64,000 nucleotides of DNA from Antedon mediterranea. Its lineage: Eukaryota; Echinodermata; Crinoidea; Comatulida; Antedonidae. A model generated the notes under the pieces. The model did not search any database and was not told the origin of the DNA. It worked only from the letters and a program-made list of their open reading frames with translations. Position numbers and translations under genes: made by a program. Numbering within the stretch: position 1 is the stretch's first letter; each line of letters opens with the position of its first letter. Positions 11,930 through 50,155 of the stretch are shown piece by piece. The stretch lies in NCBI RefSeq assembly GCF_964355755.1, contig NC_092672.1, positions 26,222,501-26,286,500 of the forward strand. The letters are read 5' to 3'.

Positions 11930-12910
11930 TTACAATGTTTCACAAACTGATTGTTGTAAACTGGTACACGGCCATGTTCGCCATCGACCGTTCGGTTTCA
12001 TCGAAACACATTTATGTTTAGGTCTTCTGTTTGACATGATTGGTTCTTGTGCAGCCCAATCTGAAAACGAAATTATTCATAAATATGACGTTTGTAAAAC
12101 ACCAACAAAAGCAATAATTATTTTATTATGAGCATTGCAAATAATCCACAGCATCGCTTTGTGCTAAGTTGATAATAAACGGAATGTTAATATTCGAAAT
12201 GTGTTGCATTATTTAATAGTCTTAATATAGTGTGTAATAATATTTAACTGATTATTGTGACACGTGTGCATTGTTTTCTCGTTTTTAACGAATGTGGGTT
12301 TGGAATTATATTTCGAATTATATTTATGTGTACGCTGAAGCTACCCAGTTCCAACTGATGTAAGTACTCGTGTGATTTAATTTCCGTGTTTATTAACTCC
12401 TATATAGTTCCAAGGTACCTCCGACAGGTTTCAGAATGTCGTTAGATTAGGGAAAAGTGAAATGTCACTTTTCCCTGGTTAGACAAGCGCTTTCCATTTT
12501 TTGCTGAACGCCAAACAAGCTAAACCGAGTGTAACGCCGATCATGGAGGTATAAAATACATTTTTATTATTTTGTAACGTGTATACCTCCATACTCCGTT
12601 AGACTGTAACTTAACTCCGTGTAAACGTAACCTAAGTCTAGTGTTTATATTGATATAGTATGTGTATGTTACTTACTTTGGAATGTACTTAAAGCGCCAT
12701 TTAAGTGAGAGTACCAGCCTCGTTTTCGTTTGCTGTATCTTATATTAAGGAATGACCAACCGCTTGATATGCTTTGCATGTGCTTGTTCTCAGCAATGCT
12801 ATCAATACTCGCAAGTACGGCTCCTTTGGAATGGCATTCCTTTTGTGAATCTTTAAAATTTCGTTTTGATTTTACTAAAAAGTAACACCTTCCATCAAAC
12901 ATATGACAAT
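11930..12910 (-). CDS. Astacin exons 16-17: C-type lectin domain 2 and stop
   Basis: Exon 12910-12677 encodes CHMFDGRCYFLVKSKRNF and DSQKECHSKGAVLASI. Exon 12060-11930 encodes NWAAQEPIMSNRRPKHKCVS, then RWRTWPC and SVCETL, then TAA. The Ca/sugar positions are altered (EPI; WRT where WND is expected), so this copy probably does not bind sugar in the classical way. Confidence 0.87.
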
Positions 12911-15900
12911 CTGAAAGCAAAAGAATATCAATATAATCATGTAACGGTAAATAAAGTTGGCAAATCTTCCCAGTAGAAAGTCTAATTGAAAATTAAAGGA
13001 TAAAATTAGAAATCAAATTTTAAATGAAGAAAAAAACTTTAACTTTTTAAATTGTAGACTGATATTGGCCAAATGTTACGGATGTCGGAAAACTTCTCTC
13101 AGTAGATACTGTAGTCTTTATATCAAGGTACAGTTAGGCCTAATGAATATAAGATCTAAATATTTTTTTTTTTTTACATAATACGAGATACTTAATGTAA
13201 TTTTCGAGCGAAAAAATGTGTTTGTTGTAATGGAAATAGAGTTATTCTGAAATTCTTGTTAAGACTGTGTATTTCTTTGTAATTTTGGATCAAATAAAAT
13301 CCGTCAGTCTACAAATCAATCAATTATAGAAATGTTCAGGATAGTTTCTGAGTGGACTAGGTTTACTCGGAGTGAAATTCCGTGAGGTTTTTTGGTGGTC
13401 ATTCTGATCGTTTTATCTGGAAACAGGTATGAAAGTACCTGTTCATATGTACAGTATAATGATCTCTCTTTCCACTTGGTTATATTAACCATGCCGGGAG
13501 GGGATTCCAAATCTTGATGGCTCTCAGATGGCTTTAACAGTCTTTTATGACCAAAAAATCCTACCTTGTACAAAACGAGAGTGGCACGCACGAAGCAATG
13601 ATAAAAGACAGGAAAGAGTGAGACAACACGCCATAACATCTCGCCATTGTCCATGTAATCTCACTCTTCCGTTGTAAAAGGTACTTTTTTTCAGTACTGT
13701 AGGCCTACCTGTAGCGTAAACTTGAACTTCACACAGTTCAATAGTTCCGTGTTTCTTCTCCAGTTGAATACTAACATATCTACCGAGTCTAGAATGACGA
13801 CAATTCTGTGTCACTTGATGCTTCGAGTCTAGATCTGATCTGGTAAGACCTACATTGCACTTACGGTTTGAGCGAAATGCATTCGACTCGTTTCCAATAC
13901 GAATAATCGCGCCCACAAGAGGTCCGGCTGAAATCATTAGGAGAGAGAAAGAAAATAAATAGTTTTTGTATCGATTACCAGTTTTATTCCATTTAGTGTG
14001 TATTAATTGTTTTCTCTTTCTTGTATTTGTCCTGTACATGTACAGTATATTTGTTTATTTTGACAAAATGAATAAATTAATGAATGAATGTTATTGTTCA
14101 AAAAAGTAAAATTGAATTTTATGTGAAATTGTATGCAAAAAGGTATGATAAAATGTGTACCTAGCACACAGGTATCATTTATTTTGTAATGGATAGTGGT
14201 GAAGTATCAATATTATGTTTAGTAATAATGTAGTTTTACTTACAAAAATAACCTTTCTTCGTAATTGTTAGTTTATTGACAAGTAGTGTTTTTCCTAAAT
14301 CAACTTTCCACCAAGGCTCCCATTGGTGACCTGCACACAAACAAGTAAAATATATTTCAATACAGAACTGAAATCTAATAAACTAACGTCGCATAGTATG
14401 TGAAAACAAACGCCGTGAGTTTAAAAGTAGCCGTCGTTTCAAGATGGATATACAACGTTTTAGTTTCAAAATGGTCATACTTTGCAGACCCGGAGTATTT
14501 TAAAGAATTCCCTCTATCAAGAGTTACTTTATAATAGTAGTAAAGCTTATTGTGGACGTCTTTGTGTGACTCTTGTATAATACGGATAGTGTCAAACATA
14601 AAGCAATCTAACAACAGGACACTGTGCTCCAACAATAGATCAAAGATTTCATCTTTGGTTGCGACATGATGTACTATTTTACCTGCAAATATTGAAATAT
14701 TGTAAAATACTGGTAAATTAAATAAAGTGAGTAATTTGGTACCGTCCCTTTTCCTCCATATTGGAAATAACGAATTTTACGACTGTATAAGTAACTAATA
14801 TATGAATTTTTCGCAGCCAATCAGAAGATCAAAACACTGTTACGAGTTCCTATCTTGTCCTGTTGTTAGGTTGTCTTGTATTGAGCAGTGAATGGAGAAT
14901 GAGTTACTCCGGGATCAGTGTAATAGAATTAAACTTTCTAAGCTTACGTGTTCGACTACAGGCTCCTTTTACAAACGTTCTTGCCCAAAAGTTACCATCG
15001 ACAGCAAGACTAGCATCTGAAAGAGTACTACTTTGCGTGGCAGGTTTATTAAGAGCTCGGGAACCAGCACATATCTGAAGATTGCAACTGCGCATTTCTA
15101 CACTGCTTCCGTGGCAAAAACCTGGTAAATTGCACTGACGTGTCCGTTTTTGTGTACCACCATTACACGTCACTGAACAACTCTCCCATTCTTCCCATTT
15201 TTGCCAGTTAGCTGTTACAATAATGGTTATTTATTACAAATTAATACTTTGTTTTAGGTCTACTTTCTTTGTCTCTAAAAAATATATGATTAACTCTATG
15301 CAACAAATAAATAGCTATCTAATGAGGATGCGCATACTTCTGTTAAGGTCAATTTACACAGACGAGCGGTAACACAAATATAGAATCTATGGTATTCCAC
15401 ATGAACATTTTCACACAACGCGGAGCGGACGGCGGGTGGTTTCCGCTCAGAATAGATACAGATTATACGTGGGGGTAGACAAGCTACGCGGTTTTCCGCT
15501 TACCGTTACCGCTCGTCTATGTAAATTGGCCTTTAGACGCAAAAGTGCTGTTTCATGAAAACAAAAGGTAGCTAATATTGTTCACATTTCACCTACCTTG
15601 TACTGTTCTTGAAACGTATGTCTCGCATATTGTAGAAATACTTCGCCTGTTGCATTTTATGTTGTTCCATTTCCCGTAAACACTGACAACAACACATCCT
15701 GTATCAAACTTAGTTGGTTGAGTATACTTTGTCCATCCTTTTTATTAAACACAAATTATAAAATGAATATTGATATTATTTTAGTTTTTCTTCAATCGAA
15801 TTCCTCTCCTAGTGTTGTATTTTAATTTTTTTTTACTATAATTATTATCAATATATTGTTTGTAGGTTTGCATGGCGAAATCAAATGTTTGCGGTACACC

Positions 15901-17711
15901 ACGTATATTTAGTTCTGGAAGGAACAGTTGAGTTTCTCAACTAAAATACGTGGCAAACTTTATATCAATATATGTATAATAATTATTTACCTGAATGAAT
16001 GACAACCTACACAAACGTGTATGAATAGATTCATTAATAATATTACTCTTACGTTATTATAGTAATTAAAATGAATTGAAAATAGTCATCATCAACGTCA
16101 CCTAGATTTAACAATTAGGCCTACCATTAATAATGTCCATAAATGTATGCTAATATAATATATTATAACTATACTATTATTCAAATACTAGTTTCATATT
16201 CCTAAATTATAATAGTCGTAACAATGTCACGTGTTTAGAATGAAACAAAACAACAAAACTTGAATTTGCATAAATACCATTGAATGACGTATATTCGTTA
16301 CGAATCCATTGCCACCTATCTCTGTGATTCATATAAGCCATTCCAATCCAAAACAAACGGCCGATTGATCGTTCTCCGAAGCGTAATCTTATGAACTCGT
16401 TCTCTTCTGCTGAACTGATGACAGGTAGATTTCCGCCCATAAGTTGACAGAGATTGTCTGCTTCATGCCAGGCTAGTTGTTTATCAATGAAAGTATAACA
16501 GCTTCTTCCAAGGCAGTTAGAATAATCGACTAAATAGTAAAAAGGTAGGCCATTAAACATGTTTACAAGATAGAGACATTTTAGTGCAAAGGTGTCACTC
16601 TCGAAAAGAATGTTACAGTGATTTCCCTCCAACTAATGACCATTTTGGTATGGAAGATTACCTCACATTAAATGCCATTTTGGTACATCATTAACGCACC
16701 AAGACCATTTCAATAGAGTTTCTTTCTAATAAAGGTCTTTATGACCGATTGTTTTGATACTGTTAAGACTACCGTATTGAAACTAAATAAACAATATCAT
16801 ACCAGTGGCTGGGTCTTCATCATATATTCTGTATGTAGCTAGGAAACCCGTTGATTGAAATGTATAGTCAGATTTAAACCCAACTAGCATTTTGTTTTTA
16901 TCAGAGATGAAATATTTTTGGTACTTAAATCCACACATTCTGTAATAGGACGACAAAACATTATTTTATTTACAATGTAAAAACAATCTACAGTATAGGC
17001 CTATGGTTTTTAGAATACCTTTGTCTCCTTTTTATTTTAAATTAGGTGTTATTAATTAAAAAAACAAAATTACAGAAACAACATTTGTTTTAATTGAATA
17101 TCGATCATAGCATGTCGAATTGGAGGTCTGTGTGGGTGGCAGATTCAACTATAATCGTTTCTAAAATAATAAATGAATTGCAGTATATCAAATGTAGTGT
17201 TCTGTGCCTGTGATGATTATAGCCAATAATACATTAATCATAAGTACACTGTTGTTAAGCGTGGTTCCCACTAGCGACGCAACGCAAGGACGTAACGCAA
17301 CGCAAGTGAATTGACCAATCACAAGCGATGGCTTATTCGCTTGTGATTGCTAACTGTCTATAACTTCGCTTGTCATTGGTTAAACGCTTGTGTTGCGTTT
17401 ACGTCCTTGCGTTACGTTCCAGTGGGAACCAAGCTTTAGCAGTAAAACATTTTATTCCAAATTGAATGATTCGTTATTCTTTTTTTTTTTCTACTCTCTC
17501 CATGGTTCTGGTGGTAGAAACAAGTCTTCTCGTATAAGGGCTGTAAACCGTACGTCCAGTGTACACATCTAGCTTATGCGCACTTTAAAGAACCTAGTAT
17601 ATCTGTCGAGACGAGTAGGTGGTTACCCCGGTGTACCAGTACACGCACAACCACTGATCGTAACTGGGCCCTCGGGGAGGAGTCCAGTCTTTGACTGAAG
17701 ATGTTACCCAG

Positions 17712-17754
<43 letters not shown>

Positions 17755-20700
17755 CAAATTTAATTCAATTTAATTCAAAAAGCTTTTTAAAATGGAGAAA
17801 ATAAAAAGAGGATGTTTGTAAATCAAAATCATATTTTATATATACGGGAAGGATACAAAAAATGCGGCCCTCTCAGATCCGGCGGCCATGGTCTATTCCA
17901 GATCTGTCTGACATGCTATGTTTGCCAAAATGTTTTATTGTTTACAACAATGTTGTATTGATTATATTCCATGGATTATACTAGAAGGATAATAAAAATG
18001 AAGGCTATACCTTTCGTGATTATCTTCGTACATGTTTTTGGTTCGAACGCTTACAAAGTCACGTTTGCAATTGCGTGAATCCTCTAATGAAAATGTCTTG
18101 AAAGACAATCGTATTTTTTGACCAGGTTTTGCCTAAAAGCAATTGACATGTTTAAAGAAACATATTATTTCAAATCAAGCAATTACGCAAAAAAAGATGC
18201 TTATATTCCGAAGCACGTAACAAATTAGTAACATTTAAATCCTTCAGTGCCTGGATCTCAACGGAGATATAAATACAATAGGCAGAAAGCTAAATCAAAA
18301 CGGTTAAAGAACTTAGTCAGAAAGAAAGTGTCAATCTTTCGAAAATATTCAACGGTGAGAGGATACAATATAGTTAAAACCATAATAACAACATTATATG
18401 TCCGTAAATATAAAAAAAACGCAAAAGTGGAATTTAATTAATGCATTATGTTAGGAAAATTATGAGAGAAGTCAAACCTTCTGAACATTAAGTAATATAT
18501 ATTTACTTTCATGTATAATCCTGAACTTAGTAATTATTGGTAAACGCATGACAATTAGATTGCATTGGTAAACGCTTGTATCGAATCAAACAGAATTATT
18601 AGTGAAATTAGGAAATTAATAGTAAAAAAAGTAGCACATAAGCCTTAAATCCGTTTAAGGAAGGCAATCTAACAACATGACACTGATACCTTGAGTCAAC
18701 AGCTTCTTCAGAAGAAGACATTTTAAAATCAATTTGGTACTATCAAACCAGTTTAACAGTTACAATCTATTATAAACAAGCATACCAAATGAATAAGTCA
18801 CATTATCATTATTTATTCAGTTACTTACCTCAATATACCATAAACAATCGCCTTTATTGCTGTATGCTTCAGGGTAATTTGGAGATGAAAGTGTTCCAGT
18901 CGAATCGGTCAGTTTATATCTACATTCTACAAGTGCAATATTTACAGTTTGATTGGTTGGATCTCTATAGTTTCTTTGATAATTCAATATGCTACATTTT
19001 TAGAAAATGTTAAAATGACTGAGATATCTATCTGATTTCTAGTTAGCAAATTCCAAGCTTAAAAAAGGTTTACTGTGTAAGCCAGTGGCTGTATTCATCA
19101 TTCATACACAAAATAAATCTCCTATCTAAGTGAAAAGAATTTAGGAGAAATATTAATTATTGAGTTAAGTGAAATACTTAATGGAAATATATCTCACTTT
19201 TACTTAAGCGTTATTGGAAAAAACAAACCTTTTTTGCCAACTCTGGGTTTGCTCATGACTTTAACCAAAAGTTTTCTAGTGAAGACTACCAAGAAGTAAT
19301 AAGGTTTGAGGGGGTCATAAGTAATTATACACGTGTGCGTAAATCTATATGAGCAGTAGAGAAGCAACTAAACATTTTTGAGCATTTGATTAATGTGTGA
19401 CTTTACTTATTTTGCATAAAACAATATTAATTGACTCTTACTATTTTCTTGATGAAGCTCTTCAGTTTTTTCGCATAAAAGGCCAGTAAACCCAGGCGGG
19501 CAGATGCACGAGCAGTATGGATATGGGCCGACATACCCATTATTCTTGCACTCCTTATAAGCACAATCTTCTGCAAAACAAAGTCATTATTGAAAATTAG
19601 GTTCGATTGAAACACCGTGGAACAAGTCTTCCATGGGCACATTCATTATAAAATTCCGTGTTGTGCAGATTTCAGTACAGAGAACCCCTATTTTGAGTAC
19701 CCCCTCGTGGGCCCTCAAAGTGACCATTAATAGCGTTGTTAATTCGCATATCTATTAGACCTAGGTCCTAAATGGAATTGAATTAATAGTGCATAAAGAT
19801 GATAGGAACAGTAATATGCAGTACTTGCAGCAATAGTTTTAAGAAAACAGAGAGATATTGTAAAATTAGCGAAATTTACTGCGAATTTAATCTCAATAAC
19901 GCTTTCTGTAAATTACAAGCGTTCTAGTGCGCCTTGGACACATTTGGTGGAGAAGTGTGCATTAACAATTTTTTCCCTGAAACTAACTTTTTGTTCGACT
20001 TCACTATGTTAGTTCAATTGTTTTAGAAGTCACCAAAAGAAATCAGACTTACTATTGCAACTGTACATTCGGTTAACCATCATAGCGTCATAGAATGTAA
20101 CCCCATTAGTTGGTCCAACATCGTATTGCAGCAGAGGGTCTCGAGATACGACAGTCGGATTCGAGTTTACACTAAAGCTCTAATAAAAAAATATATATTA
20201 TTAAACTCTAAATACAAACAGAAAAACAGTTGTAAATTGGTGAAAGTGGTAGATCCAACGGAATAGAAACTAACTCGAATTTTTCGAGGTTTTCAATTTA
20301 CTTCAGATTTTACTATGGATCTTAGTGAGATCAAGGCAATCAAAAAAACACGCTCAGCTCGCCAACATGTTGTGGAAGTCAACGATTGGCCAATGACAAG
20401 TCAATCAAACTTGTAGGGCAGGCAAAATCGGGCGTCAAACTTTTCCAGTTGATCTAGGAAAGCGTAGTGTCTTGTTGTTTGATTGCCTTGATGAGATCAG
20501 GTCAATAGCAATTTAGAGATTAAAGACCATCATTCGAACACTTTTTCGAACTTTCGGACAAAATAAATTAATACAAATATAAATATTAGGGCATTGTAAG
20601 TAAGGGGCGCCAGTCAAAGTTATGCGACACAGAAGATCTAAGAATCACTTCTGTGTCACATAATAACAATGTCCCAAACGGCACCACATACAACGATGTA

Positions 20701-23700
20701 AGTGTAGTACTTACATTTCTTTTGTAATGCATAATAGAGTTGTAGTCGTATGGTGTTGACGTCAATGTCGAGCGTTTGTCGAAATTGTATGCCACGTTTT
20801 CTTGAATATTTAGCCATAACACCCGAACATGTTTATCTCGGTCTGCTCGTTCCTGCTCGTGGTGTAACCCAATGGCATGGCCGAGTTCGTGAAGCACTGT
20901 TAAAACCTAAAATAAATAGAATATAGTATAGCTGCGCTTAATTAGGATTCATTTCTGTGACTGACTATGTGCATTGTTGTTTCTGTTTATGCCATTTTAG
21001 CTATGCTGATGCCCTCTATCGGAAAACAGTGCTTCAATCGGTTTAACTTGGATCAGTTTTCAAACGTGTCTGTTATAACTCCGTTACACAAAACCTACCA
21101 GAGTTGTGTCGGAGCCGAGACGGTCGACGGAGATAAATCAAAGTTATATGGAGTTTACGAAACAAAGGTATAGAAAACTTAAGCGATTACACTTATGACG
21201 TATGTAACTACCGTATGTAATTATAATAATATGCATGATTAAATCTAGTGCGTATGAACACACATTCCTTCTCTTTAGTGGATCATTATAAACAATTTAG
21301 TTACAGGTAAAAAACATCAAAAACAACTGTAAATTGAGAATTAAAAAACAGGGGGAAACTAGAGTCAGTGTCACATGACCTCTGTACATGTACATATTCA
21401 AAAAGATAAAATAAAGTCTCGGATTTTCACTATAGCATTTCTTAAGTACCTTGACTTAAGCAAAACGATTGTGCGAGCACAGGTTGTCAAGTGTGCAGTG
21501 GAGGGGTTATTAATCGTTTAAAGTATACTTTTGTAGCCAGTAAGCTTAGGTAATTAACTTACATTAGCACATTTTTTACCAATAGAAATAATTTGTTCAC
21601 CGCTTCGCTTGGAACCAATTGACGAAGAGCATCTAAAGGATAAAAAATAAAAATATTAAACTTGTTATTAACTAAAAATTAAGTTATTATCAAAAACGTA
21701 CAGAAAGTAACAATTATTGCGATTGTAACGATCTGTTTGAAAACAGTTTATGGTCAAAAGAACAAACTTGAACTTCAGTGGACATTAGGCTTAAAAATGT
21801 TTAAAGATAGGGTGGGTTAAACAGTTCGTTTATCTCTTATACGAAAGACATCGTTCACGGCAGCGGGTAGTGATCTTTGATTCTGAGTGAAGGAGATAAA
21901 GTTAATGCATATCTAATGAAATGTAATAGGTGGAAATTGTTGTTTTTTACTGCTATTAGTCTTATAGGTCTACCCTTTTCACACTTGCAAAAATTAACAA
22001 CTTGTAACCAGGTTTGCTAAGCGTGAAGACAATTTTCTGAAAATTCTCCAAGAATTATGAAATCTCGGGAGAAAAACAAACTGATGAGAGGCCTGTTTTT
22101 GACACGAGTCCTGAGTTGTATCTGCGCGCACGTGTATTTACCTGGTAGTAAAACTTATCAATCAAATAGCGCAAAACTATGCTTTCTCCCGAGATTTCTA
22201 ACGGCTCGTATACGTGTATGAAACGTCTAATAAATCAAGATCAAACCTGGTTACAACTTTTGCAAGCGTGAAAATGGTATTTCTCCAACACAACACAATC
22301 AATTAATTGCAAAATGAACAGGACCGTTATGAAACGAAATTTCAACTCTAGTAATCTTTGGAAATGCTCTTTTTGTTTTTACTTACCCGTTGCCTGGAAA
22401 AAACGAAATGCGATGAGAATGTCCAAGTGATTTTTCAGTTTCTTCGTTGTAACTAACAAACCTCAAACATGTTTTTACTTCCCATATCTTTAAGCTTTCT
22501 AAAATAGAATCTTTTGCTGAAATGAAATAAGTTATTATTATTGTTATTTATCATTGAATACCAATAAATAATATTCATTATTTTACATTCAGCTCCTGAC
22601 AGCGGAGCTTACCATATCTTTACCGCAGTATGAATTCTCCTACCGTGGTGTTTTTAGTCGCGTGCAACGCGACTCTACAGCTCACTATGTCGGTCGGTAG
22701 TTGCCAACTTCACTTTGGTAGTGATGGCTTCCTCAAACCGTGCTGGCTTCCTCAAACCGTGCTGGCTTCCCCAAACCAGCAAAAAAAGAAGCGTTTACTT
22801 TTAAGAATTAACTATCCAAAGGGTGTATATTATATATTTCACTCAGTTTTGATTTTATTTCAGTAGGCCATGTCCTAAGATTCCAATTTAAATAAATTGA
22901 TCATTTAAAACTTAGAACGTAATTGTTATTTCCGAAAAAATAAACACTTAATTACGATGTAACCGCAAGAAAATTTATAATATAAACGCATTATCTCGAG
23001 TCGCATTAGAATAAAATAAAGTTTCTTTTGACAGATTGATGCTGTGAGATTGAGTTATAAATCTAAAAACTTACAAACAAGGAAATATTATTATATATGA
23101 ACTATGTGTGAACTTAAGGCCAATCCCAAGGAAATAGCTTACAAATCTTATACATTTCAAACTGTTTACTTCTCAATAATGTCCAGTTGTTGATATATTA
23201 GGCCAGAGGATCATTAGTGTTTAGGGTAAAGTTATTATGGTGTTTGAAATATTAATGATTGTATAAAAAGTGATTTGCAGACTTTATTCATGAAGTCTAG
23301 CATTTTTATTCCCCATTTATTTAAGTTGAACTTCCTTCAATTCCCTCGTTTCCTACAATAGTCGTAAACTTTAGAGGTGCCGGTAATTGTCTGCATAACG
23401 CGTTAAGTGGATTCCTTACTATTGCCACTTGCGGATCGAGATTCAAGTTTTGAGATTTTTTTTTATTGAGCAAAGCAAGCGTATTCCATGGTTGTTGGTC
23501 AGAGATGATAGGTACAGGAGTCCCTTTTCACTAAATTACAGTAAAAAAGCCTAATTCTTCACAGTTCATATAATACCGAAAATCTTGGAAAGAAGCCCAT
23601 CGCGAAAAGAATCCCCATATGTGGTTTGGAAAATGATCTTGGAAAAAGCCAGGCCATCTTAAATCAAGTCCACTGGCATTCTTTTCGATGTATTTGAATA

Positions 23701-29700: not shown

Positions 29701-32700
29701 GATTTAGTGAATTTGAGAAGGATGTGTACATTAAAAGTTGCTCGCATTGCGGCTTCTACTATCATTCCAATATTAAAATACTTTTGAATAGTTTTAAAGT
29801 TCATTAATTTACAACTTTCCTTCAAATCGAATGTTGAAATCTAGGCCAATAATACATACGGCGCTCGGAATTTGACCGCGTATTAGCCGTAGAAAACGGC
29901 GCACACTCGCATGTTGGTTCTCAAATGCACAGTTGCCAGTCTCTGAACGTGCAATGTACCGAAATCGTGAGGATAGATCCAAATAATTCACTGCACGTGC
30001 TACATAACCAACCAATTAATTGGCAAATAAATACTAAAATAAATGTAATGCCCTACCTGCTGGTGCTTGTATGATGTACGGTATAATTCCACCAGGCCAA
30101 AGTCTGTCTGGATTCAACGTTGCCTTCCTCGTACTTCTGTGCTTCACTACCAGAGACTCATTCTTAGATATGTCATCTTGTAGGCCTACCTCCTAAATGA
30201 ATAATTATATTGCATATTTGATTAATATTAAGTACAAGGTCTACTCCTTCACGGAAAATCTAAATGAAGCCCGTAGAGTCACAGAGTAAAATGTCATAGT
30301 AGATCCCGTACAACTCATTATCACACCGTTCAGTTTGGTTGTCTATGGTTGGTTTTGAGAGTTATTGAAATTAATATTGTTACCTCTAAATAGAAACCAC
30401 TTTGTTTTTAGTATCAATACAATTTGTTGCCTAGATTAAATATAAAAATTAGACGTATAGCATACAATTACCATTGTTGTACAACATTGTAGTATTCACG
30501 TACCGACCGTTATGTACCTTGTGAATGTCTAAACTGGTGTATAAATAAATTATTGATGTCTAGTTACGAGGTCATTGTATAATGTGTTAATTGCCCCACG
30601 CCTACAATTCAATTATTAAATAGTTATAGTCGAATAATGCAATTATTTCCATCCAATTATTTGACATACATCCAGGGTTGAATAATTCACGACGTGCTTG
30701 ACACGTTGGTAATTTTATATAGGCCTAAATACTTATAATACTATGCATACTGGTACAGTACTGTTTATGTACAATAGCAAATGAACTGTAGCCCGACCTA
30801 TTCCGCACAGTCTTCTACACACCCCCACGTATAACTACTGTCAATTAGTACGGTACTTCTTAATTAAAAAATAAGGTATAATATAGAATAAGTATTAAAT
30901 CAGTCATACATGTTCACCCTTGTGCTGTGTCTCTACATACGACAAGTTTCAATACCCTGTATGACTACTCGGTAATACCATGTGTATCACACGGGGTGTC
31001 TTTATCATTATAAGGTTAGGTTAAGAGAAGGTTGTGGTCTATTATACTAAGCAATATATGTGAAATGCATGTGATACTGTATTACCGAATATTCCTATGA
31101 TACTGGAGAAATCTAGATATATAATTGTATGTAGGCCTATACACCTTTCACAATTACATATTTCAAAATGTCAATATGAATTTATGAATGAAAATAAATG
31201 TTACATAGTGGCTTGATTGGCGGGATAAATAAATATATTTATTTTTACTAATATTAAGACAAAACTCCATCTGGAGCCCAGACTACCTGATTTCATGCTC
31301 TACGACAGGAATAACATGTTCCTACCGTTCAGTAATAAATTGAATACAAATTTATTGAATAGATTATAGTACTAAAGTACTAATATTAATTGATAGATCT
31401 AATTCTATTTCTTAAACCCTCGAAATACACTTATGATTGACAGAATTCTACTTTCCTCTAATGACGTCACGCTGCGCATCTACTTTGTAAGTATGATACT
31501 TCCACTGCGATTTTCACTTTCAAATTTTTGTCGAATTACTTTTAATTTATCCCCGGAATTTCCGTGAAACTGTGCATGTAGGGCTAGATTACAGGAAGAC
31601 TGTCCTACGATATGGCCTTCAGTTGATTAAGTGGACAGCAAACATATATTTTTTTTGTAATGCAGTAGGCCTAATTAATCAAGATCTTCTATTTCTTGTC
31701 CATAGCTCTGATATGTCATATATATATGTTTGTGTTTCATATTATTTTCTGTCTTTGTAAAATTTGAGTAATTGCACACTTAAGCCATGATTGAGTAATA
31801 TTTTGACAATTCGTGAATTCGCATAGAAAATGAAGTAAGAAATGATAAGATATTAAATAATGTATCACCATTTAATTTGCTTGAAGTTATAATACAAACA
31901 AACCATCATATGTTGGGCTTAACTTGTCAAATTAATTTGTGAAATTGATTAATTTTAAAGTTATACTTGTCAATGTCATGTGTTTCTAAACAATGAAATA
32001 ATAAAGTAAAGTTGAGAATGTATCAGTCACGTGTTTGAAAACACATGGTGTGCTGTGCCTTGCTTTGCTAAGTGTTATCCGCCATGCATGCAAACCTGTA
32101 AACATCACTTCACTTATATCAAAGTGATGATGTTATGTGAGAGAATACTGCTGCTGTTTTAAGTAACGGTTTGTATGTATATTCAACTTTACGAATGTTT
32201 TTACAACGCTAGACTAATGGAAGAAAAGTTGCTTTTGAATGTAATTCACTTCTTTATAATAAACTCACTAACGACGGACGTGATATTTAGAAGTTTCTAC
32301 CAGATGTGGAAACACGCAAATTGAATTACTCAATAAAAATTCATATCCAACCTAATGCACTGGTAAGGTACAAAATAAACAATGATAGGCAATGTTTTAC
32401 ATTCTAATTGTGTAAAAAAAAATGATTTAACCATACTTTATACATTATATGCCTGTTGTTTTTCCCATTTCCAAAAAAGGAGAAACACAACACAACAAAA
32501 TCTTTTTTACAATAAGTATAATGTAGTTGAGGTGATGGTTTTCGATTGTACGACGATAAGAATAAACTATTTTGCATCTGGGAAATTGAATTGAACATTG
32601 CATCACAGGTGTACAAATTGAAATTGGCAACGATATTTGGATTTTATGGTTTTATGCTTATCTTTGAACTTCTGTGTTTCTTTATATATTTGATCCTTCA

Positions 32701-35700
32701 TCAATTTTCTGTGTCTGTGAATTACATGTACAACATTTTTAAAATGCGTTTTTTTTTTAAATATTCTTGTATTATTTTGTTGACATAATATATTTCGTTA
32801 TGCATTATCAATGGATTTTGTCTGATTTGCCAATAAACTTGTAAATCGTTCCAGCATTAGGGCCTATATTAGCTGAAGAATTAGGCCGATAAATGACATG
32901 TCAAAAATATGAAATATGATACATAAAAAAAAATGATATCGAAGAAACCCTGTGTGTGGCGGTAAGGGCATGCAGCTATCAACATTGTTAGAACGGGTGT
33001 AGATATTGAAATATAAAAATAGACAGCTATATCAACACCGGCTGTAGTGTTTAATAGATTGTATCTTTTGATAATATTGTTTGCATGCAACAGACCAGAG
33101 GACCATACTAATATATTCTTTATTTGAAGGAATGAAAGAAAAATGGAAAAACATTGGAAACTGGCATACAAAATACTAAACAGAAGAAGACATTAATTAA
33201 ATTATTAAAAAGTGTATGCACATTACGCCTAATATGGTATAATTTCAAATATGAAATAGATTATTGGTACGGTATCGTGAATAAATCACGAATTATTTAA
33301 ACTTAGAAATACAATAAAATCAGATCTCTGCAACTATATACCCACTTATTTATTATTACCACAGATTATAGTTTTTTACGTATAATGTGAGGAAGGGAGC
33401 TTATGCAATTTTCTATTAGATATTTGATCGAGATATAAATATAGGCCTACCAAGCTTATAGCTAAGAAAAATATTAGTCATTACTGAATGTACATACAAA
33501 TTATTTTCCATTTGTGTTGAAACCTTAAACAATTTGAATAATGGTCTTGCAGTTAGTGTGGGATGAGGAAATACACGGCGAAAAAAAAGTAATTGACTTC
33601 CTATGGTGATTTTTTTTAAATTCAAAATCATAGTTTTAAGATTGGTGCCCACTTAAACACATCGCAATGACGTAGGCCTACGGCAAGTGAGTTGACCAAT
33701 CAGAAGCGGCAGTTCGGATGATCCAGGGCATCCTGAATTGTCTCCTTATTACTTGCGGCGCGCTTAGGTCATTAAGTTGCGTCAAGTGGGGGCCAAGCTT
33801 GAATGATCAGTGCTAAACTTCTGTAATATTTCAGTCAGTGTTTCTTGTTTTCTTGTTTACTGTATTTTGACAGGAAACGCTACATTTCATGTAGAAGTAT
33901 AACTCAATGCGTTATATAGTTGGCACACATTACCATGCTATTTAATGCAGTCTCGTATCTTGAGCCAGGTCTACATTAGGCCTAAATACGAGAAGTAGGT
34001 CGATAAATGTACATTATTCACCACATGATTTCGACTTTCAAAAGGTGTTTTTATTCAATTCTTAAAGCCTGCATAAAATACTTTGCTTGACATTAATACA
34101 TTTTTACCCAATTTGTTCTCCTTATTTGACAGATTAGCAGCTGTGAGCAATCGCGTTAAAATGTACGATTATTTTGCATTATTCTTTGTTAGTAAAATTG
34201 AGTTAAAATAGTCCAATATCCTTGGAACTATTATTAGTTGCTTGGATCAAGTCATGTGACAAGTACCCATGACCTTACAAAAAAAAAAGGATCATACACT
34301 ATTTGGATTAATTTGTATATTAGTTATCTATTTAAATTCAAATATTAATCCTAATTCATTTAAATAACTGTTAGTGGTGTGTAAATTTATAATCGATAGT
34401 GGTTAATTTAGTGAATGATTATTTTGTATTATTCGTTGATGGTTTAAACGATTGGATAGAAATCAATTAATATCCTGGAAAAAAAAGTATAATGCAAGGT
34501 AACACGACGCAGGCCTCCTTATAATTCACACAAAGAGAGTCATGTACCTAAATACTAAATTGTAATGCAATAATGTGTACATTTAACACAGTGCTCTTGG
34601 GGTTTTTAAAAATATTATAGAACATTTGGGATATGTGCTGCGTCATATACGAAAGTCTATAAAATGATTTTATTTGCAGTGCTTACTAATTGTAACATCC
34701 CTAAGAGGAAACTCTTGGAGGTTTGGTTGGATTTGATGCTGTCAAACGTATTCATTGACGTTGCAGTTGTATTATTTTGTTGTATTAATATCCGAATCAA
34801 TAGTCGCAATTTAAAGGTTCCATAAAAACGTAAATATGCAAATAATATTGAAATAGCAAATTACAATCTATCCTTAATAACACCCTATAAAAGATCATTT
34901 AGGTGTTTTTATTTTTAATCACTGAAAATACCAATTTTTTTAGGTACGATAATCTAACGTGAAAATACACGTAATATGGATAGAACATTTCTGAAATTAT
35001 GTTCGTTTTGTTTGTTCACACGTAAAGCATAATAAGGCTGGCGTAACATACGCCTGACGTGCGTGTGAACAAGGCAGAGGCGTAGTTGTCATACATCGTG
35101 ACATGCATTATGGGCATGTTGAATCTGTGAATCAATAGTCTACATTAATAGAAATAACCAATGCAGAATTGTGCATAACATTGTCTCCTCTCGACTTAAT
35201 TCCACGGCTTTCATTTCGTTTAGGCTACTCCAGAGAACATTGATTTATGAGTGTATCACATGAATAAGTTACATGCATTTATGTAAATCCAAATGATTTG
35301 TAGATAATTTATCAAGAATAAGGCACGTTGGTCATTACATTTTGAATACGCATATTATTATATATTATTTGAAATCTATATTTGAAACATGGCACGCTTC
35401 TTTTAAAAAAAATGTAAACTAGAATATTAACAAGAAAGTATGTACAAAAGTAAAATTCGAACTGAAATATCACGATGTCAATTCAGTAGGCATATTAAAC
35501 AATTATTATTTTATATTATTTAAAAACAATTAAGATGTAAGTATTTTGTTGATAAAATAACACCGTGTTATGTAGTTGGCTTACGTACGGTAGATAATAG
35601 TTCAGGCCTACATTCCATACAACTTAACTAACCATTTACTTTATTCAGGGTGATGTATAATTATCAATGAACCATGTAGAGTGTTTACCATTAAATGTCC

Positions 35701-38700
35701 AGAATAGGAATTGATACTGTGACAAGACATGGCTGATAGAGTTACACAAATATGTTATAGACCTACCTCTATTCCCAAAGGGTCATGCGATCTCTGTTCA
35801 TCCATTCATAGTTTTTTTAACATGAAAGGAACCGTTACCAGCTGTAAGGGTAATTTATTCTATACATGATCTCTACCAAAATATGAAATCCCACAAGGTC
35901 ACGACAAATACATTTACATGTTATTTGTTCTTTCATTCCACGTGATATAGTAGATTTTTTAGGTTTTTTCTTGTATATTGTTATTGATTGATAGTGACAA
36001 AAATGAGTAATAAAAGAACGAACGTAGCATACGAGAGACAGATTTATGAGAATACGCTACATAGCACATTCTATTATTGAATTCATCAGCTATCCCTAGA
36101 CGTTATTGTATTATGTTATAAATCAAAATAATTTTCCATCATCATCATAATATGGTGACTTAAGAAAAATAAGTGGGAAAATATTGTTTTTGTTTAAATA
36201 AAAGTTGAAGGTAGATTACCAAGTGTTTTTAGAAAGACAATCATCAAAAATACTTTGGTGAAATTGAGTGTTTGTTTCATAGGTTAGATAAATTAAATAG
36301 CATTAATTTTAAATCTAGCAAAAAAACAAAACCGAAGGTAAAAGCTGTGTAAAAAACAACAAAACAGTCAAGTTAGTTTTTTTTAAGATTAAAGTTTATT
36401 TTAGTAGTGTTTTTTTAAAGGAATGTTTAAATATATTAAGTAATATCTGGGTTGTAATACAAATAGTGTTTACAAACCAGATGAATAATTACAAGTAATT
36501 TAATTCATGATGAATGATGATCAGTTCTTACCTAGTACAATACAATTAATTTGTATTGAAGGAACTACAAATAGGATCTAATTTCAAGTTCAAAGACATC
36601 GAATAAAGGCACGTATGATACGCACGATAAACAACGAAAACCCCAGACATTAAATTGCTGCTGATTTCTACATTTCTTCCTACATACCTTTAACTGACGA
36701 TAGATAAAACTGACAGACGAAAACCCAGTCACTTGGGATTCAGCTCTATTGTTTCCTGTATACTATTAACAGTTGAAAACAACTTGCTACAAATAGTACT
36801 TCCATATTTAAGAAGCGAGACATAAATTGTCTGAAAGAATGTGTACTAGACAGATACAACATGGAACTATATAACTCATGGTTTAGATTCTTAATTTTCT
36901 CTAATAAGGCATAGACACGTTCGTAACAAATACAAGGCACAACGAAGACATTTACTATGGTGTTTTGTTTTACGGTCCCCTTATCTACTTTCTAACTACC
37001 CAACTATGTATTTATTGTATTAAATTAAATACTGTTTTTGTAAAATAATTTAGTAACAAACTAACTGCACAGTTTGGCGGATCGGATTTAAGAATGGACC
37101 AAACATTTCGGGAAGTACAATTGTATGCGAAGTTAATACATTGTGTTAACGGCAGACTTCATTTAAAAATATAGGCATATAGACACTCAAGTACTGTACC
37201 CTCAATATTTCAAGGTTCTGCATCCACCATTAAATTCCCCTCACCACATTTTAAAATTGTTATTGGCTCCTATATTCACAGATAATTGAGTTAATACGCC
37301 TACAGATTTTTTTTTTTTTAATTGAGAAAAGACATCTTTTTTACTACTAGGCCTAAGTGTTATATGGCAAGACAAATACAATGTATATAATATACATTGT
37401 ATTTGTCTTGCCTTTTCAAAAATACGTCAATGAAATTAGCCCTGGTGAAAGAATAGTGCTTTGATTACTTTACATAATTTTTTGCTAATAGTTACGTAAT
37501 TTCCGAATGATATTCTTCATATTTCTCAACGAAGATCAGTCTTATCGTGTTTACAGAGTGCAACGTTGTTGTTTTAAATTACGTTTCGAATTGTGTTTAT
37601 TTCTGACGGGAATACAACTGCCTCAGTATATAATTATGTAATATCGAGTTGTGCTTTTATATATTAACATCCGCAAGCACTGACGTCTTTGATTATGTAT
37701 TTTACTGTATGCTAATGCTATTTAATAAATGTTAATGCTTTCTGGATTAAATTAAAATAATCCTGTCATATTAACTTACTTATATTTGCACTTTTTATTC
37801 ACGATATTTATTCCCATAATACTGAATGTGTTAATTTATTATAGTTCAAAATAAACATTAACAAATGTAGTATGAACTTAACGAGTCATTCAGTTGGTAT
37901 TCATGAGTTCAGTGGAAATGGTCACATGTATGTGATAATGACAACATGTACATCTATAATTAGCAATGTTTATATAAAAGTGAAGAAGTCACGACACCAA
38001 CCACCCTCATTGCCACAATATTCATCAACTAACTAACTAATACCGTATTTATTCGAATAATGGCCCCGGTGCGTTTGTTCAGCAGGGTTTTTTAAGGGGG
38101 TTATTCAGGACAGGTGTTTATTTTTTGGGTGTAATATTGTACCGTAACATGTATAATCAAATAAATTCCCTCGAGATATAAAATAAATACAACACAATTA
38201 ATATCAAAAAGGGATAAAATACAGTAATATTAAAATTGTATCAAAATGGATTCTATACAAATACTGTAGAAATACGTTGTAATACAATATGTATATGGAT
38301 GTGGCGGGCCATTATTTCGAGGAAATAAATACCGTAATACGGTAAACGTACGGGGATTAATTCAAGGGGGTGGGTGTTTATTATTCGGATAAACATGCTA
38401 TGTATGTTGAATACTATTCTAAAATCATGTATTTAAATTTCCATAACAAATCAAAATGTCATGAGCCTATACGGTAAATCCTAAATGAAATGTAAATTAG
38501 GCAGCGAAGGACTGATTTCATGTCCTCATTATTATGGATGCTGATGCTGTTGATACTATTTTTCTATTTAATTATAAAACATTATATTCGAACTTATGTT
38601 TTATGTAAAATATTTGTTGAGGAATATTTTGGCTAAAATCGAAAAAAAAAAACAATATAATATGTCGCGGTAATGTGGTGTAATCCAGATTGTCTGAATG

Positions 38701-39136
38701 CTATTTTTACCAACCATATAGCCTTTAGGCAGGATCCAGACATTACAATACGGTACATTGAATAGGATAGGGCTTACATACAGTACAGTTACTGCTACAC
38801 ATCATAGTTAGATCAGGCCTTGTAGATAGATAATCAGTGCTTTGATAGAGCACTGTAGGCCTATTATCATTTATCTGTTTATCATTGCGTAATAATATTT
38901 TGAAATACATCAAACAAACTTATTATGTTACATTACATAAAAAAGAACATCAATTGATCGAATAGTCCCTGTCTGTGGCTGTGCATACGTTATTGCATGC
39001 AACTTGAAAACATCCAAGAGTAAGTTGAACTTACCGTTACATCCCGTTCTATATGTTGTGAGAAACTGATTATATTCCCAGAGGAGAAAAACGGCAATAT
39101 AATAATGTGTAGACACAGCAGTAGGAGGTCCATCAT
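11930..39136 (-). CDS. Secreted astacin-EGF-CUB-CTLD-TSP1-FTP-CTLD metalloprotease
   Basis: Seventeen exons in transcript order: 39136-39035, 30192-30057, 22516-22387, 21632-21563, 20906-20715, 20179-20053, 19570-19442, 18926-18829, 18132-18011, 16939-16803, 16529-16278, 15737-15597, 15211-14948, 14330-14244, 13927-13709, 12910-12677, 12060-11930. Every junction keeps phase and the total is 2571 nt (856 residues plus stop). Order: signal peptide 1-24; short propeptide with LQDDIS, a likely aspartate-switch variant of FxGD; RSTRK processing site; astacin 58-252 with HELGHAIGLHHEQER zinc motif (H152, E153, H156, H162) and SIMHY Met-turn (Y207); EGF; CUB; C-type lectin 1; TSP1; fucolectin-type FTP; C-type lectin 2; stop after CETL. 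The protease part resembles the BMP1/tolloid and hatching-protease group. It should act outside the cell as a zinc endopeptidase directed by glycan- or matrix-binding modules. Exon 1 is the least certain part, and the acceptor of 15737-15597 is poor in pyrimidines. Confidence 0.85.
12450..12475. repeat. Short hairpin in the last intron of the astacin gene
   Basis: GGGAAAAGTGA and TCACTTTTCCC pair perfectly (11 bp) across a four-base loop. Confidence 0.6.
13709..15211 (-). CDS. Astacin exons 13-15: TSP1 and fucolectin (FTP) domains
   Basis: Exon 15211-14948 holds a thrombospondin type 1 repeat (WEEWESCSVTCNGGTQKRTR) fused directly to the start of an FTP/F5-8C-like domain (ALNKPATQSSTL, AVDGN, GACSRT). 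Exon 14330-14244 has HQWEPWWKVDLGKTLL. Exon 13927-13709 has VGAIIRIGN, GRYVSIQLEKK and LCEVQVY. These are the hallmark strands of eel-fucolectin/tachylectin-4-type domains, which usually bind fucose. I did not verify the His and two Arg fucose ligands. Confidence 0.88.
15345..15534. mobile_element. MITE-like element (CAGACGAGCGGTAAC ends)
   Basis: The ends AAGGTCAATTTACACAGACG and its diverged complement (with CCGTTACCGCTCGTCTATG) face each other over about 190 bp. A TA follows the right end; the left target base has changed. Non-coding, in an intron of the astacin gene (between 15211 and 15597). Confidence 0.7.
15597..16529 (-). CDS. Astacin exons 11-12: C-type lectin domain 1
   Basis: Exon 16529-16278 encodes the first half (CYTFIDKQLAWHEADNLC, GRLFWIGM, RWQWI). 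Exon 15737-15597 encodes the second (DTGCVVVSVYGKWNNIKC, ICE). The sugar-site positions read QPT and WNN in place of the QPD/EPN and WND of Ca-dependent lectins, so sugar binding is uncertain. The exon 12 acceptor (AATAAAAAG) lacks a pyrimidine tract. Confidence 0.85.
15897..15956. repeat. Inverted repeat around CCACGTAT
   Basis: CCACGTATATTTAGTT and AACTAAAATACGTGG form about 15-bp imperfect arms around a 28-base loop. It lies in the intron within lectin domain 1. Confidence 0.6.
16803..18926 (-). CDS. Astacin exons 8-10: CUB domain
   Basis: Exons 18926-18829, 18132-18011 and 16939-16803 encode GTLSSPNYPEAYSNKGDCLW, then PGQKIRLSFKTFSLEDS with CKRDFVSV, then FKSDYTFQSTGFLATYRI. These are the N-terminal, middle and C-terminal signatures of a CUB domain. 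Junction phases are 0 and 2 inside the domain and 1 at both edges. Confidence 0.92.
17258..17436. mobile_element. MITE family 1 copy
   Basis: The ends GCGTGGTTCCCACTAG and its complement are flanked by TA (17256-17257 and 17437-17438). The interior repeats CGCAACGCAAGGACG blocks and the core GACCAATCACAAGCGATGG. It lies in the intron of the CUB domain. Confidence 0.85.
17490..17775 (+). mobile_element. Probable SINE/LINE 3' fragment with (AT)n tail
   Basis: A GC-richer stretch with GGGCCCTCGGGGAGGAGTCC and TTGACTGAAGATGTTACCC ends in about fifteen AT units and AAATAAATAA. This layout is typical of a short retroelement with a microsatellite tail. No family was identified, and the left border is a guess. 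Confidence 0.4.
17715..17745. repeat. (AT)n microsatellite
   Basis: About fifteen uninterrupted AT units close the preceding retroelement-like block. Confidence 0.9.
19442..19570 (-). CDS. Astacin exon 7: EGF-like domain
   Basis: This 129-nt phase 1-1 exon has cysteines in EGF order: DCAYKECKNNG, then YCSCICPPGFTGLLCEK. EGF then CUB after the protease is the usual order in BMP1-like and sea urchin SpAN/BP10-like astacins. Confidence 0.9.
20053..22516 (-). CDS. Astacin exons 3-6: catalytic domain
   Basis: Exons 22516-22387, 21632-21563, 20906-20715 and 20179-20053 encode IWEVKTCLRFVSY, then ISFFPGNGCSSSIGS, then GEQIISIGKKCANVLTVL running into HELGHAIGLHHEQERADRDK, then YDYNSIMHYKRNSFSVN, and the end MMVNRMYSC. 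All zinc ligands, the catalytic Glu, the Met-turn and cysteines are in place, so an active enzyme is expected. Confidence 0.93.
20318..20505. mobile_element. MITE-like element (AAGGCAATCAAA ends)
   Basis: GAGATCAAGGCAATCAAA near the left and TTTGATTGCCTTGATGAGATC near the right form terminal inverted repeats of about 30 bp with one small gap. It lies in the astacin intron between exons 5 and 6. No ORF is inside. Confidence 0.7.
21973..22277. mobile_element. 305-bp MITE (TTGTAACCAGGTTTG ends)
   Basis: The terminal inverted repeats (about 40 bp with a short indel) include TTTTCACACTTGCAAAA and TTGTAACCAGGTTTG, flanked by TA (21971-21972 and 22278-22279). A second inverted pair with TCTCGGGAGAAA lies inside. 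It is in the astacin intron between exons 3 and 4. Confidence 0.8.
22652..22700 (+). repeat. Fragment of the CGAC/TCGG repeat family
   Basis: AGTCGCGTGCAACGCGACTC and CTCACTATGTCGGTCGGT match one end of the larger copies at 43.5-51 kb. The element breaks off after two TCGG units. Confidence 0.7.
25617..25710. mobile_element. MITE family 1, truncated copy
   Basis: It starts with ATTCCCACTTGGACGC and keeps ACCAATCACAAGCGA, but loses the right terminus. It lies in astacin intron 2. Confidence 0.6.
28356..28485. mobile_element. MITE family 1, degenerate copy
   Basis: The core GACCAATCACAAGCGATGG and the right end (CGTCCTTGCGTTGCGTCCTA, then GGAACAAAGC) are clear; the left terminus is worn. TA follows at 28486-28487. 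Confidence 0.7.
30057..30192 (-). CDS. Astacin exon 2: propeptide and mature N-terminus
   Basis: It encodes EVGLQDDISKNESL, a basic RSTRK site, and ATLNPDRLWPGGIIPYII. The last part is the typical mature start of BMP1/tolloid-type astacins (W-P-x-G-x-I-P-Y). TTTAG acceptor, GTAGGG donor in phase 1. It joins the exon at 22516 across a 7.5-kb intron to give a continuous protease sequence. Confidence 0.88.
33639..33800. mobile_element. MITE family 1, diverged copy
   Basis: The ends AGATTGGTGCCCACTTAAAC and CAAGTGGGGGCCAAGCTT are inverted. The core reads GACCAATCAGAAGCGG. It lies in astacin intron 1. Confidence 0.65.
37366..37412. repeat. Perfect 47-bp palindrome
   Basis: Two 23-base arms beginning GGCAAGACAAATACAATG are exact complements around a single central A. 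No mismatch was seen. No coding context. Confidence 0.9.
38042..38396. mobile_element. MITE-like element (TTATTCGAATAAT ends)
   Basis: CCGTATTTATTCGAATAAT at the left and ATTATTCGGATAAACATG at the right are inverted, with G-rich runs just inside both ends. About 355 bp, non-coding, in astacin intron 1. Confidence 0.6.
39035..39136 (-). CDS. Candidate exon 1 of the astacin gene: signal peptide
   Basis: An ATG-ATG start opens 34 codons beginning MMDLLLLCLHIIILPFF, a good hydrophobic signal peptide, and ends at a strong GTAAGT donor in phase 0. The propeptide exon, 8.8 kb downstream in the gene, accepts in phase 0. The link rests on phase, strand and content only. A longer overlapping ORF in another frame (39133-39324) is probably incidental. 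Confidence 0.55.
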
Positions 39137-43586: not shown

Positions 43587-44412
43587 ACAAGGCCAACAGC
43601 CATTAAGTCGCGTGCTACAATGCATAGTGATACCGGACCGACAGACAAACAGACCGACAGACAGACAGACCGACAGACAGACGGACCGACCGACATAGTG
43701 AACTATACTGACCGAAATTACTGAACATGTTTAAAAATGTTGAAATGTTTAAAAACATTTATTTTTTTTTAATTTACACGTGCGTAGCCTGTCACTTTTG
43801 ACGTGCTCTTATAACGTAATTTCGAGTTGAAAAGTAAGTCAAGAAAACAGAAATCGGGCAAAAAGAGTGAGCAACAACATTTAACGCGCAGTGCGCGCGC
43901 AAAAATCTGCGCACTCATGGCAATTTTGTAAACGCTTAAAATTGCCTGAAACGTACTCTTGTTTCATCGAAAATAAATTTTGAAAATTTTAGGCGCGCGT
44001 ACGCATGGGTTACATGCGCTACGCACGTAATTGTATTGCCATGTGATGATTTATGCCCTGAAATTTATGAGTACCAAATTTTATTTAATTGTGATTCATG
44101 GTTGTTAAGATATGATTACAAACGTGATTTTGTTAAATCGTGCGTAGACCGCGTAATTTTTTATTGCGCACCGTGAAAACATAACCACATCGATTCCTGG
44201 CCATAAGGAATATTCTGTGAAAAATTGACTTAGCTAGATTAAACTGATATCAAGATAAGGTCATAAAGCGATAAAACGCATAGTGATACCGGACCGACAG
44301 ACAGACAGACAGACAGACCGACAGACAGACCGACAGACAGACCGACAGACAGACAGACAGACAGACCGACCGACCGACATAGTGAACTATAGAGTCGCTT
44401 CCACGCGACTAA
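43587..44412 (-). repeat. CGAC/TCGG repeat family, copy a
   Basis: It runs from AACAAGGCCAACAGCC to ACGCGACTAAAA. A CCGACAGACAGAC microsatellite block stands near each end. The middle has CGCGCGCAAAAATCTGCGCA and other unique sequence shared with copies d and e. The left end looks rearranged, with a second copy of the GCATAGTGATACCGGACC segment. Confidence 0.8.
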
Positions 44413-44704
44413 AAATGTAACACATTTTTTTTTAAAGTTGAGGAGTTGAAACAGATATTTTGATTATACACGGATACAGGATGGTCTCATTAAATGAAAA
44501 AAAAAGATTTATGTTTTTATAATCAGACAAAATTCCTGAAATTCAAAAATGGTAATTTTAATCTGAAAATAAACTTTTAAAAAATCGGTAAATTGTATGA
44601 AATCGTCTTTTTGTTGTTGCATGTTTCAGTCCCATCATGTTGTTTTATGCTTAGTTATGTTATGAAGTTCGTAAAGTGCATATATTGATTCTAGATTAAT
44701 TGAT

Positions 44705-44823
44705 TTTTAGCCGCATGCAACGCGACTCTACAGCTCACTATGTCGGTCGGTCGGTCGGATGGTCAGTCGGTAAACACTAACTAAAATTTGAGCACGCGAC
44801 TGCAGCCATGTATATGGTCTTGT
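44705..44823 (+). repeat. CGAC/TCGG repeat family, copy b (internally deleted)
   Basis: Both ends of the family (CAACGCGACTCTACAGCTC and GCACGCGACTGCAGCC) are present, but the roughly 500-bp middle is missing, leaving only a TCGG microsatellite between them. Confidence 0.8.
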
Positions 44824-45051
44824 TGATGATGTTTTCGGTTGGTTTGTTACAGCAGTTCATTGGATCTTGGTTGTTGAAAACAGCATGATTGTTGGTTCGT
44901 TACTTTGTTGGTTACTAGTTTGTCCATTGGTATTTGGTTCGTTTAGTTTTTTTAGTCAGTTAGTTTAGTTATAGTGATTTCAATGTGTTGTGGTTTTGTA
45001 GTTAATTTATTTTGTCAATGTTTTAGTAATTCGTTAGTTGGTTCACTGTTT

Positions 45052-45272
45052 TTTAGTCGCGTGGACGCGACTCTATAGTTCACTATGTCGGTCGGTCTGT
45101 CTGTCGGTCTGTCTGTCGGTCCGGTATCACTATGCGTTTTATCACTTTTCTGTACTTTTTGAACTGTTTTTATGTACAGACAAGTTTTAACTATGTCGGT
45201 CGGTCTGTCGGTTGGTCGGTCTGTCGGTTTTTTTCTGAGTCCACGCGACTTATGGCTGTTGGCCTTGTTTTT
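45052..45272 (+). repeat. CGAC/TCGG repeat family, copy c (internally deleted)
   Basis: It begins AGTCGCGTGGACGCGACTC, has two GTCGGTCTGTCTG-type blocks around GGTATCACTATGCG, and ends near CACGCGACTTATGGCTG and GGCCTTGTTTTT. A 60-codon ORF across it is incidental. Confidence 0.8.
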
Positions 45273-49745: not shown

Positions 49746-50155
49746 TAAGGCAACATCATACACAAATACCCATCATATTGTATGTGCTACCAAATTGTTT
49801 TTCTTTAATGTTTTACATTCAGGGACATTCATAGCAAGAAAGAGGAGATGCTATTTTTGTTTACATTATTGGAATATATTTCAATCAAAACCTGCATGAT
49901 ATCAGTACTAACGAAAATGAGTGTCATTCCTAACAATCTCTTCTCGATAACAAAAAAGAAAAAAACAGAAGAAGTAGGTCTAATTTCTGAAAAAGATTAG
50001 CAAGAGAAAAAAAAATAGGTCAATATTTCATCTCTGTTGACCGTTACTCCCATCTATACAAACAGTTTACAATCTAATTATATTAGGCCTAGAGTTACTA
50101 GATCTAAGTTATTAACTAGGTCATTTCTCAACATTTTATGTTTAACTGCCTCAGT

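Follow-up and report, generated by a model that had tools for sequence, protein, structure and literature searches.

The minus strand of a 64,000-nt stretch of Antedon mediterranea contig NC_092672.1 (the window, by which we mean the whole stretch of DNA analysed) carries, from 39136 to 11930, what is most probably one gene for a zinc protease, made as a secreted zymogen whose tail serves for docking; this gene would be one of at least five of its kind in the genome. The gene was rebuilt from reading frames and splice sites as 17 exons and 16 introns, all 16 with GT...AG limits. The spliced exons are in phase throughout and amount to 2571 nt, or 857 codons including the stop. A previous interpretation of this DNA, the sequence-only reading, had also arrived at 17 in-phase segments and 857 codons; the rebuilt model reproduces that count and those limits and adds the strand, which had not been given. 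The exons, in window coordinates, are as follows.

Exon 1, 39035..39136, minus strand: putative; start codon and hydrophobic segment, signal or anchor (MMDLLLLCLHIIILPFFSSG...); donor of phase 0
Exon 2, 30057..30192, minus strand: end of the propeptide, probable processing site RSTR|KA and start of the astacin domain
Exon 3, 22387..22516, minus strand: astacin domain
Exon 4, 21563..21632, minus strand: astacin domain
Exon 5, 20715..20906, minus strand: zinc site HELGHAIGLHHEQ and Met-turn SIMHY
Exon 6, 20053..20179, minus strand: end of the astacin domain
Exon 7, 19442..19570, minus strand: EGF-like module (cysteine pattern; below the Pfam cut-off)
Exon 8, 18829..18926, minus strand: CUB, part 1
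Exon 9, 18011..18132, minus strand: CUB, part 2
Exon 10, 16803..16939, minus strand: CUB, part 3
Exon 11, 16278..16529, minus strand: first C-type lectin domain (CTLD1), first half
Exon 12, 15597..15737, minus strand: CTLD1, second half, with QPT and WNN at the sugar-site positions
Exon 13, 14948..15211, minus strand: TSP1 module and start of the F-type-like (FTP) domain
Exon 14, 14244..14330, minus strand: FTP, part 2 (EPWWKVDLG)
Exon 15, 13709..13927, minus strand: FTP, part 3
Exon 16, 12677..12910, minus strand: second C-type lectin domain (CTLD2), first half
Exon 17, 11930..12060, minus strand: CTLD2, second half (EPI and WRT), and stop codon

Exon 1 is the weakest piece of the model: it lies 8.8 kb from exon 2 and was the sole candidate when about 25 kb upstream were screened for an ATG, a hydrophobic start and a strong phase-0 donor. 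At the other end of the gene, an AATAAA starts 7 nt past the stop codon of exon 17. From exon 1 onward, the intron phases are 0,1,2,0,0,1,1,0,2,1,1,1,1,1,1,1. Phase 1 occurs at every one of the astacin/EGF, EGF/CUB, CUB/CTLD, CTLD/TSP and FTP/CTLD boundaries, the symmetry that shuffling of extracellular modules is expected to leave. Exon 13 encodes TSP1 together with the beginning of the FTP domain. A pseudogene was considered and judged unlikely, all 17 exons being open and the splice sites canonical, with the active site and the cysteines kept.

Domains were called with Pfam profiles at their curated cut-offs, run on the spliced product. We found Astacin (PF01400) at residues 66-252 with 176.3 bits (cut-off 22.5), CUB at residues 297-405 (93.9 bits), two stretches of Lectin_C (PF00059; 91.7 bits, the best at 432-538), in agreement with the CTLD fold, and TSP_1 at residues 550-593 (38.1 bits). 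F5_F8_type_C_2 (PF22633), at residues 615-716, passed by a narrow margin (29.5 bits vs a cut-off of 27.8) and the F5_F8_type_C profile stayed below its own (26.1 vs 28.2). No EGF profile of Pfam reached its cut-off, the best being EGF_C8A_B_C6 with 16.4 bits (cut-off 27), and the EGF call rests on cysteine spacing and on the aligned exons of relatives described below. Sequence matches in the PDB comprised cubilin (CUB), meprins, TLL1, BMP1, high choriolytic enzyme 1 and astacin for the first half of the chain, and LY75, FBP32, thrombospondin-1, C-type mannose receptor 2, the lectin 1k12 and DC-SIGN for the second. The domain list proposed previously was thus recovered by profile search as regards Astacin, CUB, two Lectin_C and TSP_1, narrowly as regards the F-type-like domain, and not as regards EGF. 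Its term "fucolectin domain" can be kept as the name of a fold (PF22633 and the match to FBP32) but not as a function, the fucose triad having been lost. The active-site residues of the protease are kept: the zinc site HExxHxxGxxHE, which reads HELGHAIGLHHEQ here, is intact in all five family genes, and the Met-turn SxMHY is SIMHY in the window gene and either SIMHY or SVMHY in each relative. The PDB chains of mature BMP1, TLL1 and astacin start aligning at query residue 58, directly after RSTR-K, and because of this the processing site is probably at RSTR.

The relatives were found by a protein search of the animal's own genome (354 Mb, apparently nearly all in eleven contigs of about 22-41 Mb, as estimated from the lengths of eight contigs and the highest positions observed on three others), in which 53 of 577 candidates were scored. 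Besides the window gene, contig C3, on which it lies, has astacin, CTLD and TSP1/FTP pieces in order at four other loci, each on one strand.

Relative A, contig C3, 10.319 Mb
Relative B, contig C3, 10.331 Mb
Relative C, contig C3, 29.081 Mb (G000:C3:29078077-29107340; L006, L007, L023, L024)
Relative D, contig C3, 29.063 Mb, minus strand

Their splice models were fitted without the phases of the window gene, the anchors being taken from matches to its exons. Intron phases were the same as in the window gene at 15 of 15 introns (exon 2/3 to exon 16/17) in A, B and C; the main piece of D agreed at 11 of 12. Astacin, CUB, TSP_1 and Lectin_C exceeded their Pfam cut-offs in all four relatives (in D, from exon 5 onward; in C, for a 1177-residue part starting at the processing site), and F5_F8_type_C_2 did so in A and C, not in D. 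The number of CTLDs varies, with two in the window gene, three each in A, B and D, and 14 in the model of C. The latter is a fitted model of 40 exons in one frame, whose only stop closes the last exon; its CTLDs, mostly alternating between EPD and EPN types, are counted from a model in which exons 17 and 31 start late and exon 35 ends early. Upstream of its YQGD, the propeptide frame of C has many NDTKLV-like repeats, and the 5' end of the model is the start of the open frame. Across the ten gene pairs, amino-acid identity was 36-55% over exons 5-10 and 31-55% over exons 11-15, A and B being the closest pair in both halves. Third codon positions were the most divergent and second positions the least in all 20 pairwise comparisons (both halves); these counts were preferred to tests based on synonymous divergence (dS) because synonymous sites are expected to be saturated at such distances. 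The cysteines of the window gene are common to all five genes at 11 of 11 positions in exons 5-10 and at 14 of 16 in exons 11-15. The codon and identity patterns fit both halves having been inherited together, both under constraint at the protein level. Since four other loci repeat the same order, the architecture goes beyond chance, and it looks like that of a small gene family of at least five lectin-tailed astacins rather than a one-off misreading.

The Astacin profile matched 32 stretches in the genome, which made up 20 loci when grouped by zinc-site exon: the five family genes and 15 others. At none of these 15 did tblastn (>24 bits) find a CTLD or FTP match in the 8-9 kb that follow the zinc exon; in all five family models, exon 11, the first half of CTLD1, lies no more than 4.7 kb from the start of the zinc exon. 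Absence of the tail was judged from these fetched flanks and not from the genome-wide Lectin_C and F5/8 matches, because the first CTLDs of A, B and D are not among the Lectin_C matches listed. TSP1 was present at two of the 15 loci. One of them (L019, G000:C10:24475000-24484000) reads protease-EGF-CUB-TSP1x5, its five TSP1 matches being very similar, and the other (L020, G000:C10:24426200-24435200, minus strand) reads protease-EGF-CUB-TSP1-CUB-TSP1, followed by one or two more TSP1-like matches. A catalytic tree was built from 18 catalytic-plus-EGF rows, namely the five family genes plus 13 of the remaining 15 loci, the two omitted being L009 and L011 (both close to L010). The five genes fell on one side of a branch with a support of 78/91. 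This branch recurred in 76% of bootstrap trees, and none of 500 label shuffles gave a value as low; C and D formed long branches. A single origin of the five genes is likely on this tree, not proven.

The sugar-binding residues of the tail were then considered, a CTLD motif being scored as complete when [EQ]P[ND] plus WxD/N were present. Complete motifs were found in 12 of 25 CTLDs overall: 0/2 in the window gene, 2/3 in A (one of the two being the mixed form QPN), 0/3 in B, 10/14 in C and 0/3 in D. Both CTLDs of the window gene are incomplete, CTLD1 with QPT/WNN, in which the second half is kept, and CTLD2 with EPI/WRT, and CTLD1 lacks a complete motif in all five genes. The fucose triad of F-type lectins follows the motif HX26RXDX4R/K. 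At its three positions, the window gene has CSRT, TKKG and GPLVGA vs CTHT, TNRD and KRINGA in FBP32. The histidine is lost in all five family genes and both arginines are replaced in the window copy, the first arginine being kept only in relative C (TNRAD).

With these data in hand, we propose that the prosegment would be removed at RSTR by a furin-like enzyme and the protease secreted, and that its tail would anchor it on a matrix, egg-coat or cell-surface partner, thereby selecting its substrates. A different account would split the chain into two adjacent genes that the model joins in error and that duplicated as a pair: one for an astacin-EGF-CUB protease resembling BP10/SpAN, the other for a lectin of the order CTLD-TSP1-FTP-CTLD. 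Astacin-EGF-CUB pieces without a lectin tail in 9 kb do occur at three other loci (L012, L014 and L015), and an in-frame ATG with a short hydrophobic stretch stands directly before exon 11. However, the CUB-to-CTLD1 intron, where the two genes would have to part, is short (273 bp in the window gene; as modelled, 322 bp in A, 208 bp in B, 432 bp in C and 435 bp in D) and of phase 1 in all five models. Its 273 bp in the window gene contain no AATAAA or ATTAAA; AATAAA does occur in several other introns, e.g. four times in the 1071-bp intron inside CUB. Moreover, the in-frame stop of exon 10 lies only beyond the donor site, and each of the five genes would need a terminator, a promoter and a start within that one intron. 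Because four co-ordered relatives exist and no such tail was found in the 8-9 kb covered at each of 15 other astacin loci, a two-gene artefact is unlikely, and we give this account very little credence. The claim, made from the beginning, of one chain from one gene is well supported by the order and phases of the relatives, by the short CUB-CTLD intron and by the codon patterns of both halves.

As for the partner of the tail, the sequence-only reading had envisaged a protease brought to glycans, that is, lectin domains of the window copy itself directing proteolysis to fucosylated or mannosylated surfaces. The lectin folds are there, CTLD1 retains the half-motif WNN, and relatives A and C have complete CTLD motifs (2/3 and 10/14), but neither window CTLD does, the F-type histidine is absent from all five genes and both arginines are replaced here; the motifs give no support to glycan targeting by this copy, which we consider doubtful, even if non-canonical sugar binding is possible. 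Docking of the window copy would most likely be protein-protein or charge-based, a mode favoured because its CTLD sugar residues are incomplete and those of its FTP domain are gone. Glycan binding by A and C is plausible from their motifs, and these two may dock on glycans through the CTLDs with complete calcium/sugar motifs. The protease could also stay on the cell surface (e.g. of sperm), with exon 1 as a type II anchor, like ascidian Tast proteins. The hydrophobic run of exon 1 is long and has no positive residue ahead of it, and four of ten Halocynthia Tast models are listed in Table 2 of PMC11673157 as having a transmembrane segment (TM), ZnMc_astacin-like and TSP1 repeats; the Tasts of that table, however, are listed without CUB, CTLD or FTP, the segment of the window gene sits at the extreme N-terminus, ahead of an SSG stretch of small residues such as signal peptides have, and exon 1 is itself unproven. 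Membrane attachment is, in our opinion, rather improbable. Nevertheless, a number of points weigh against the secreted zymogen with a docking tail that we prefer. Its gene model is a prediction from genomic DNA alone; exon 1 is without homology support, its hydrophobic segment might anchor the protein in a membrane, and intermediate exons are possible between exons 1 and 2. The propeptide reads LQDD, unlike the FxGD-like motif that is the aspartate switch of the astacin family (relative C has YQGD). Keeping the intron after exon 10 would bring a stop soon after CUB, so that a short protease-only isoform is possible. Among the relatives, exon boundaries are not fully independent of the window gene, the model of D is incomplete (no exon 4 was found, the junction of exons 15 and 16 is off-phase and there is no F5/8 match) and the F5_F8_type_C_2 match of B is marginal (27.9 vs 27.8). 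Tree support for a single origin is weak, and docking and substrate are what we infer.

The first part of the chain follows a known plan. BP10/SpAN of sea urchins contain astacin, an EGF-like module and CUB, and, like these and BMP1/tolloid, the window gene has astacin, EGF-like and CUB modules with a basic site before the mature protease, CUB being recognised by its profile (93.9 bits) and EGF by its cysteine pattern only. In BP10/SpAN and the tolloids, the C-terminus is made up of further CUB/EGF modules only, whereas the window gene goes on into CTLD-TSP1-FTP-CTLD. Its FTP domain matches the F-type lectins FBP32 of striped bass (2.5e-26) and 1k12 (1.5e-12), which we take to be the eel lectin AAA, but differs from them in that the fucose-site histidine and both arginines are replaced and in being embedded in a protease. 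In the CTLD fold, with LY75 as the best PDB match, and in the 14 CTLDs modelled in one frame of relative C, there is a likeness to the C-type lectin arrays of LY75 and the mannose receptor family, which are membrane receptors without a protease domain. The Figure 1 legend of PMC9848320 names C-type lectin, FA58C, TSP, CUB and EGF among the partner domains of astacins, and the same article gives five CUB and two EGF for the BMP1 type. Ascidian Tasts, as presented in PMC11673157, likewise have astacin followed by TSP1 and form a gene family with a tandem cluster; they have 1-6 TSP1 repeats and no CUB, CTLD or F-type domain, unlike the window gene with its one TSP1 among other modules. The Exaiptasia "Blastula protease 10" Aipgene28816 is described in PMC6626399 as a metalloprotease carrying a lectin-like module and a single TSP1 repeat, but the lectin-like module is concanavalin-A-like, not CTLD or FTP, and no CUB is listed in that description. 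An Elysia scavenger receptor figure legend (PMC7663992) names Astacin and CTLD, their order being absent from the text, and the available passages of PMC12013895 and PMC12549020 contain no such fusion. Among the matches listed, no paper title or opening of an abstract named an astacin with this order, protein databases and most subscription papers lying outside the search. The earlier statement that no described astacin continues into CTLD-TSP1-FTP-CTLD is thus uncontradicted in the literature searched, but its novelty is reduced in that each type of module is already given as an astacin partner in the legend of PMC9848320. The module order is a new variation within astacins already known for many partner domains.

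Five genes share this order, with 31-55% identity between them over the two halves aligned, and so it has been kept over a long divergence. Complete lectin motifs occur in some members of the family and are missing from others; it can therefore be tested whether glycan recognition steers an extracellular protease, by setting the tails of C and A against that of the window copy. More tentatively, and short of an even chance, the five genes could form a family in which lectin arrays aim proteolysis. Relative C would be one chain of ~2,500 residues, its protease site intact and its 14 CTLDs suited to dense glycan coats, the window copy would retain the scaffold but no longer bind sugar in the canonical way, and subfunctions might lie in defence, gamete coat or matrix.

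Elsewhere in the window, exons at 54723-57200 (plus strand) resemble those of a beta-mannosidase, a tentative label; a 95-residue piece gave no Pfam match. Simple repeats with frames reading SVCLSVCLSV or DRPTDRPT lie at 43587-45350 and 50019-50279, inside an apparent dispersed repeat. In the rest of the genome, clusters of C-type lectin exons were seen, among the matches listed, on G000:C1 at ~1.09-1.47, 31.5-33.8, 34.9-35.0 and 36.8 Mb.

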